DNA from: a virus
Length of the DNA: 57,028 nt
Strand: one strand, 5' to 3'
Virus record (IMG/VR): IMGVR_UViG_3300017917_003533
Coordinates: 1 to 57,028 of that record
The position numbers and the translations under genes were made by a program. The notes below the pieces were generated by a model, which was given only the letters and a program-made list of their open reading frames with translations, was not told where the DNA came from and did not search any database. This document shows positions 44,225 to 57,028 of this stretch, piece after piece; position 1 is the first letter of the stretch, and every line of letters begins with the position of its first letter.

Positions 44225-44232
44225 TATAAATA
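44225..44232 (+). promoter_or_regulatory. Late promoter TATAAATA (+), half of an overlapping divergent pair
   Basis: An exact late box reading right, 35 bases before the 44267 ATG; predicted start near 44238. It faces an identical box on the other strand 10 bases away. Confidence 0.8.
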
Positions 44233-44242
44233 AATTATTAAT

Positions 44243-44250
44243 TATTTATA
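44243..44250 (-). promoter_or_regulatory. Late promoter TATAAATA (-), half of an overlapping divergent pair
   Basis: TATTTATA on the + strand, so an exact late box reading left, 25 bases before the 44218 start; predicted start near 44237. Confidence 0.8.
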
Positions 44251-56291: not shown

Positions 56292-56316
56292 CAAGGTGTT
56301 CAGTCGGTTATATAAT
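56288..56316 (+). promoter_or_regulatory. Consensus sigma70 promoter before the 56366 gene
   Basis: TTGACA at 56288-56293, a 17-base spacer, TATAAT at 56311-56316: full consensus. The -35 box overlaps the SWIM gene stop. Confidence 0.92.
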
Positions 56317-56365
56317 TATGGTATGGTAGTTAATTAATCAAAATTTTATGAGAGGTAATTTTATT

Positions 56366-56767
56366 ATGTCAGATTCATATTTTACAGTTGCAGGTGTTTC
56401 TACTCAACATGGTTCCACTAAGGTTCGTTTCGCTAATGATCTAGCATCTCGAGTTAAATTGCTAGCTAAAGGTGGTCATGATCCTTTAGAGCTTGTTCAA
56501 CTTCCCAAGGCAATGACCAAGGCAGAAGCATGCCAGTATTTGCTCGAACTAGGTGGCGTATTTAAGCAGTGGGATTCACTTATTACTGAGACAATGGGTA
56601 AGAAATCAGGTGTATCCACGCCAAAGGCGCCGAAAGTTGCTAAGGCGTCGGCTACGGTTAAGGCTCCTGCTAAGACCAAAGCTGTTAAGCAACCCAAGAT
56701 CACAGTAGCCCCCAAGGCTGAGGATGAGGATCTTGAGATTGAAGAGCTGAAGCAAATCGCAGCTTAA
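56366..56767 (+). CDS. Small protein with histone H1-like Lys/Ala/Pro tail
   Basis: A 133-residue protein; the start at 56366 is preceded by AGAGGT (an in-frame ATG at 56348 is an alternative). Residues 1-75 form a small domain (SYFTVAGVSTQHGSTKVRFANDLASRVKLLAKGG..ELVQLPKAMTKAEACQYLL). Residues ~85-115 are a Lys/Ala/Pro/Thr tail (TPKAPKVAKASATVKAPAKTK) like histone H1 or bacterial HctB tails, followed by an acidic end. DNA binding is inferred from the tail. A consensus early promoter drives it. Confidence 0.7.
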   Translation: MSDSYFTVAGVSTQHGSTKVRFANDLASRVKLLAKGGHDPLELVQLPKAMTKAEACQYLLELGGVFKQWDSLITETMGKKSGVSTPKAPKVAKASATVKAPAKTKAVKQPKITVAPKAEDEDLEIEELKQIAA

Positions 56768-56768
56768 A

Positions 56769-56819
56769 CGTCGGGAGACGAGTAAAAGGGAGAGTAGCGG
56801 AGACCCGAAGCCTACGCTC
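56769..56819 (+). other. Structured RNA segment after the 56366 gene
   Basis: Two hairpins: CGTC-GGGA-GACG (56769-56780, a GNRA-type loop), then GTAG and CGG (56794-56800) pairing with CCG (56805-56807) and CTAC (56812-56815), extended by GAG (56790-56792) with CTC (56817-56819). No T run follows, so it is not a typical terminator. Confidence 0.45.
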
Positions 56820-56873
56820 ATTCTTAAACGACAGAAATATTGTGTCCCTTAGTAATAACGAGGTTATCAGGTA

Positions 56874-56881
56874 TATAAATA
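56874..56881 (+). promoter_or_regulatory. Late promoter TATAAATA
   Basis: An exact late box; predicted start near 56887, 16 bases before the long inverted repeat. The only thing downstream in the window is the RNA/short-ORF candidate. Confidence 0.8.
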
Positions 56882-56901
56882 ATTATACAACAGGAGAAGT
56901 T

Positions 56902-57003
56902 ATGTTTTGTATGTTACATTCCTTTAGAATTAGTACGGTATCAGGCTATGATAAGCCAGAGTGCCGTGCCACACAAAATCCATGGAGTGTGCTAGAGGGC
57001 TAG
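56902..57003 (+). CDS. 33-residue ORF inside the RNA candidate
   Basis: An ATG with AGGAG seven bases upstream opens a 33-codon frame (MFCMLHSFRISTVSGYDKPE.., ending SVLEG) that stops exactly before the right arm of the inverted repeat. The ribosome site is good, but the codons coincide with base-paired RNA, so peptide and structured RNA are competing readings. Confidence 0.4.
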   Translation: MFCMLHSFRISTVSGYDKPECRATQNPWSVLEG

Positions 57004-57026
57004 GTAACATACAAAACACAGTTTTT
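56903..57026 (+). ncRNA. Candidate late structured RNA with 15-bp closing stem
   Basis: TGTTTTGTATGTTAC (56903-56917) is perfectly complementary to GTAACATACAAAACA (57004-57018), and a T5 run follows at 57022-57026. Inside are two further hairpins: ACGG (56935-56938) with CCGT (56964-56967) enclosing GGCT/AGCC (56944-56947 with 56954-56957), and CACAC (56970-56974) with GTGTG (56987-56991). Together they make a three-way junction. A late promoter sits just upstream. I do not recognise the RNA family. Confidence 0.55.
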
Positions 57027-57028
57027 AC

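Follow-up and report, generated by a model that had tools for sequence, protein, structure and literature searches.

Phage T4 makes its stable RNAs C and D together with its tRNAs, as part of the tRNA transcript, from which processing releases them. The dual-function bacterial RNAs SgrS/SgrT and RNAIII each combine a structured RNA and a small ORF in one transcript. In hok-type mRNAs, a small ORF lies in a compact mRNA with paired ends, and this 5'-3' end pairing gates translation, while the start sites of the T4 soc, e and 49 mRNAs are hidden by hairpins. The element described in this study is located at the right end of the window, that is, the whole 57,028-nt stretch of viral DNA that was analysed (IMG/VR record IMGVR_UViG_3300017917_003533). 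Like RNAs C and D, it would be a small RNA of a T4-type phage beside tRNA genes. This likeness, proposed in a sequence-only reading of the window, held as a loose analogy only, as the element differs in a putative late promoter of its own, a predicted terminator before the tRNAs and an open frame. As in SgrS/SgrT and RNAIII, one transcript would be both structured RNA and small ORF, whereas in this element the whole fold is occupied by the ORF, and a stem (P1) joins the start of the ORF to its stop. Paired ends and a small ORF in a compact mRNA are also found in hok-type mRNAs, but in contrast to the membrane peptide of a hok-type toxin, the peptide here is not hydrophobic (the homologous peptides were polar on inspection, without a long hydrophobic stretch). 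The start region is buried near a late promoter, as in soc, e and 49, whereas the structure here would lie within the late transcript and span the whole ORF. Of the traits of dual-function RNAs, a conserved structure was found; the frame is open, has ribosome sites and is under weak amino-acid selection, and it may be translated. The element resembles dual-function or structured-mRNA genes as a kind, and belongs to none of those that can be tested.

At the right end of the window lie, in order, the late promoter motif, an AGGAG sequence, a 33-codon ORF and a three-way-junction RNA of 116 nt (56874-57018), with the following features.

56874..56881, + strand: TATAAATA, a T4-type late promoter motif, which precedes 30 of the 31 homologues, with TATATATA in the remaining one
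56892..56896, + strand: AGGAG Shine-Dalgarno sequence, retained as AGGAG or AAGGA in many leadered homologues
56902..57003, + strand: 33-codon ORF encoding MFCMLHSFRISTVSGYDKPECRATQNPWSVLEG, followed by its stop
56903..57018, + strand: structured RNA body, a predicted three-way junction closed by P1 (fold and arm-swap test)
56903-56917 with 57004-57018, + strand: stem P1, a perfect 15-bp inverted repeat
56920-56927 with 56992-56999, + strand: predicted inner stem P1b, 8 bp, which closes the junction (also in A-type homologues)
56933..56969, + strand: predicted hairpin P2, with the apical loop AUGAUA at 56948-56953 (fold and arm-swap test)
56970..56991, + strand: predicted hairpin P3, with the loop AAAAUCCAUGGA, whose AUGG is kept in almost every lineage
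57019..57028, + strand: beginning of the 3' tail; the terminator lies past the window edge and is visible in relatives

The two arms of P1 are 15 nt each, 100% complementary and separated by 86 nt; perfect arms of this length were not expected at all in shuffles of the window. The fold energy was -50.6 kcal/mol, compared with -28.1 +/- 3.5 kcal/mol in dinucleotide shuffles (z = -6.43; reached by 0/200 shuffles). The promoter motif followed by a unit of about 115 bases with a perfect 15-bp stem, as the sequence-only reading had described, was therefore confirmed, as were the 33-codon ORF with a good ribosome site and a stop (TAG, 57001-57003) abutting the right P1 arm at 57004. The two inner hairpins were also found, and the junction additionally holds P1b, which had gone unmentioned. 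The claim that the element matches no known RNA family stood: the 4,227 covariance models of Rfam 15 gave no match over it at gathering or permissive thresholds, and the sole match nearby in the permissive scan was to a snoRNA (E 0.28), located elsewhere. No description of such an element was found in the open-licence literature.

The number of TATAAATA copies in the window (13 found, 14.2 expected) showed no overall enrichment. However, five of the 13 are intergenic, though intergenic DNA makes up only ~4% of the window, and four of these five lie ~20-25 nt ahead of an ORF, including ORF 56902. As it is concentrated in intergenic DNA, mostly shortly before ORFs, TATAAATA behaves as a promoter motif. 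From the geometry of T4 late promoters, the transcript is predicted to start at ~56887. Elsewhere in the window, at 44225-44250, two TATAAATA motifs on opposite strands lie within 26 bases between divergent ORFs, an arrangement resembling a compact divergent late promoter.

IMG/VR was queried with the protein of the upstream ORF (56366-56767), which gave 80 loci, and homologues of the element were gathered by running a peptide profile on every ORF in the fetched loci, together with DNA-pattern scans. For a direct scan of the collection the first peptide alignment proved too diverse, and a narrower one worked. In total, 31 distinct homologous units were found in several lineages: A, which includes the window and the A-type loci L004, L006, L012, L014, L018 and L019, B (L015, L020, L043, L087 and L091), C (L027, L028, L030, L031, L034 and L036), and a main set (L023, L026, L037, L049, L050, L055, L061-L064, L067, L069 and L073). 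The gene order common to the homologues, where the contig reaches, is the shared gene (sometimes a second gene), TATAAATA, the element, the terminator and the tRNA array. The motif (once TATATATA) was located 107-146 nt upstream of the ORF stop in all 31 units. The element was single-copy in every large contig possessing it. Several related loci lacked it, and no degraded or broken copy was seen there.

The genes of the window include those for DNA polymerase, a replicative helicase and UvsX, the last with a best match of 65% to Stenotrophomonas phage DLP6; by its genes, the window belongs to a T4-type phage. Among cultured phages, a blastn search of 50,697 phage records with 56300-57028 found no match, including none to T4 RNA C or D in this comparison by sequence. 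For the region, the neighbouring gene and four peptides, blastn and tblastn gave nothing or chance-level matches only. In GTDB genomes, the core DNA motif had 21 matches, none with the surrounding element, and these were taken as chance. At this search sensitivity the element was found in no cultured phage, and the gene is best read as one of a clade of uncultured T4-like phages.

The window stops 10 nt past the stem, at the same base as contig L003, as might be seen with an assembly or amplification artefact at a contig end. Such an artefact is extremely improbable: the element occurs inside many other contigs, of up to 222 kb, which continue into the terminator and tRNAs, and the mirrored sequence stops short of the contig end, unlike that of a fold-back chimera. 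A fold-back artefact is ruled out by these other contigs. A block common to co-occurring phages could interrupt assembly, which would explain why L003 and the window have the same end point. In several loci a near-identical element lies in mid-contig, followed by the terminator, a sigma70-like promoter and tRNAs. Over 117 nt, identity among the A-type elements is 97-100%, compared with 78-93% for the neighbouring gene; a recent exchange of the block may account for part of this similarity. The near-identical stretch begins near the start codon and extends to the end of the terminator, and the flank diverges downstream in L012 and upstream in L014. It may have been exchanged as a unit.

A second conserved structured element was observed at 56769-56848, immediately past the stop of ORF 56366-56767. 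It comprises an invariant CGUCGGGAGACG hairpin, then GGGG/CCCC around a variable hairpin and CUUAAACGAC, and it is also present in L003, L004, L006-L014, L018, L019 and L035, even in loci without the three-way-junction element. In its alignment, 96.6% of cells pair, and the covariation score was 0.228, compared with 0.161 when shuffled (0/500), with far lower values in slid controls. The Rfam scan of this element gave no match at either threshold.

Relatives with longer contigs carry a hairpin and T run that begin ~29 nt past the ORF stop, beyond the window edge, and every unit with enough contig has a GC-rich hairpin plus T run after the element. The T5 run at 57022-57026, listed in the sequence-only reading, is not the terminator. 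In the loci scanned the element is always upstream of the tRNAs, and in several lineages the end of the ORF is, by eye, complementary to the terminator arm over 6-9 bases. This might indicate a leader-peptide attenuator: GAGGGUU at the ORF end would form an antiterminator with the terminator 5' arm AACCCUCGG and control read-through into the tRNA array. We consider this very unlikely. The antiterminator pairing scored -10.6 with its own partners and -10.1 with swapped ones, and 1,621 of 10,000 permutations equalled or bettered the own pairing; the stem of the terminator itself, by contrast, covaries (4/10,000). In addition, C-type elements lack the antiterminator pairing, and the A-type tRNA arrays carry their own sigma70-like promoter past the terminator. 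As the ORF end does not covary with the terminator arm, the attenuator reading is not supported. Large phage tRNA arrays, of which as many as 23 genes lie within the sequence fetched, were observed to begin soon after the element (L018, L019, L020, L045, L049, L063, L067 and others), and many are ordered Ile, Glu, Cys, Asp, Leu.

The fold appears to be under selection. For 25 of the 31 homologues, the mRNA was more stable than versions with synonymous codons (z -2 to -5); L023, L062 and L087, and weakly also L064 and L069, fold little better than their synonymous versions. On a plain sequence alignment, RNAalifold recovered only the apical P2 stem. Little is recovered in this way because helix registers shift between lineages, and an arm-swap test was therefore used in place of a covariance model. 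In 12 representative lineages, the P1 arms scored -16.2 kcal/mol when paired with their own partners and -11.2 kcal/mol when swapped, and the corresponding values for P2 were -15.9 and -11.1 kcal/mol (0/20,000 permutations in each case). The P3 pairing showed no significant covariation in the same 12 lineages, and P3 is absent from the C-type elements and L062. Within close groups, the rate of change was 0.026 at paired sites and 0.063 at unpaired sites; pairing persisted in 24 of the 42 pairs that had changed. By these comparisons, P1 and P2 pairing is upheld across lineages despite differing arm sequences. The covariation that the sequence-only reading had proposed to look for in related phages was thus found, and most lineages had no homologue with the ORF retained and the pairing lost. 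For what had been suggested to be a phage small RNA made late, the comparison supports a structured RNA that is conserved and follows a late-type promoter (31 homologues, covariation), with late transcription as the predicted part.

The dominance of this structural constraint, and the recurrence of the P3 AUGG and apical AGACA motifs across lineages, would suit a purely non-coding regulatory RNA or decoy with an incidental ORF. The ORF, however, was open in each of the 31 distinct homologues, with a length of 29-38 codons and one copy cut by a contig end, while the other forward frames mostly contain stops. It starts 5-25 nt past the promoter motif in all 31 units. Most leadered units have an AGGAG or AAGGA Shine-Dalgarno sequence, and in the B units, L026, L069, L073 and L064 the predicted late transcript has the AUG at its first or second base and would be leaderless. 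Among 343 changes, ~18 would be expected to create a stop and none was seen (P ~8e-9, a value that is overstated since the homologues were partly found via the ORF). The frame being always open is thus partly a selection effect, which the element-free loci without broken relics reduce but do not remove. Indels between conserved blocks were, by eye, mostly multiples of three, with an exception in the C type. We regard a purely non-coding RNA as quite unlikely, and the ORF, treated as incidental in the sequence-only reading, is probably not so; as it is open in all 31 homologues, the RNA alone is not the whole story.

These features of the frame are also those of an ordinary late micropeptide gene, for which the peptide of ~33 aa would be the product and the mRNA structure secondary, tuning expression. 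A peptide HMM joins the A, B, C and main types (E ~1e-12 or better), and the peptides have the core YGRQPExFAR..NSW, whose A and W do not vary in an alignment of 14 rows. Among the main lineages, changes in the core codons showed a modest excess at the third position (9/11/21 at positions 1/2/3), which suggests some selection on the peptide. However, changes across the whole ORF were near-uniform over the codon positions (25/31/37 within groups and 114/103/126 between groups), compared with 159/109/468 and 201/101/442, respectively, in the neighbouring gene, and unpaired sites had no position-3 excess (13/12/9). Silent sites were more conserved in the ORF than in the neighbouring gene (0.61 compared with 0.44). 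AlphaFold gave no confident fold for the peptide (mean pLDDT 58), and Pfam-A and PHROGs held no family for six representative peptides. On this evidence a micropeptide gene is plausible but unlikely. The pattern of changes is read as that of an ORF that stays readable while its amino acids are weakly constrained, the stronger constraint being RNA structure.

Comparison shows that the homologues retain P1 and P2 pairing, the order of the genes and an open reading frame. We consider it somewhat probable that the element is a free-standing late RNA gene, in which the fold is the main selected product, the ORF stays translatable, and the fold probably limits translation. Late transcription, the start site, ribosome loading and translation are inferred steps, and could proceed as follows. 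Transcription from TATAAATA would yield a transcript of ~180 nt that ends at its own terminator, ahead of the tRNA array, and folds into the three-way junction of P1, P2 and P3. P1 would join the first codons to the last codons and the bases past the stop; as it joins start-proximal to stop-proximal sequence, the whole ORF would lie inside one closed fold. Ribosomes would load on the Shine-Dalgarno sequence or on the 5' AUG. In predicted folds of most complete transcripts the AUG is largely paired, and the Shine-Dalgarno sequence is partly free in many. The closed fold may protect the RNA and slow or gate initiation, and a translating ribosome would open the clamp. The folded RNA would then be the main selected product, with translation secondary or regulatory and not serving a strongly constrained peptide.

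A more speculative proposal, which we hold only tentatively and consider rather unlikely, is that these elements form a new class of late phage RNA, with selection keeping frame and fold while the peptide barely matters. Translation would act as a switch, the ribosome opening the start-stop clamp, and the RNA would respond to late translation or tRNA supply, or would decoy a host RNA-sensing defence.

The family is a single-copy, syntenic, covarying RNA gene without a database entry, present before the tRNA arrays in many uncultured phage contigs. If confirmed, it would add an RNA component to late T4-type infection, and would be a natural case of an ORF maintained with little peptide constraint. 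Leaderless late mRNAs would be made by some lineages of T4-type phages.
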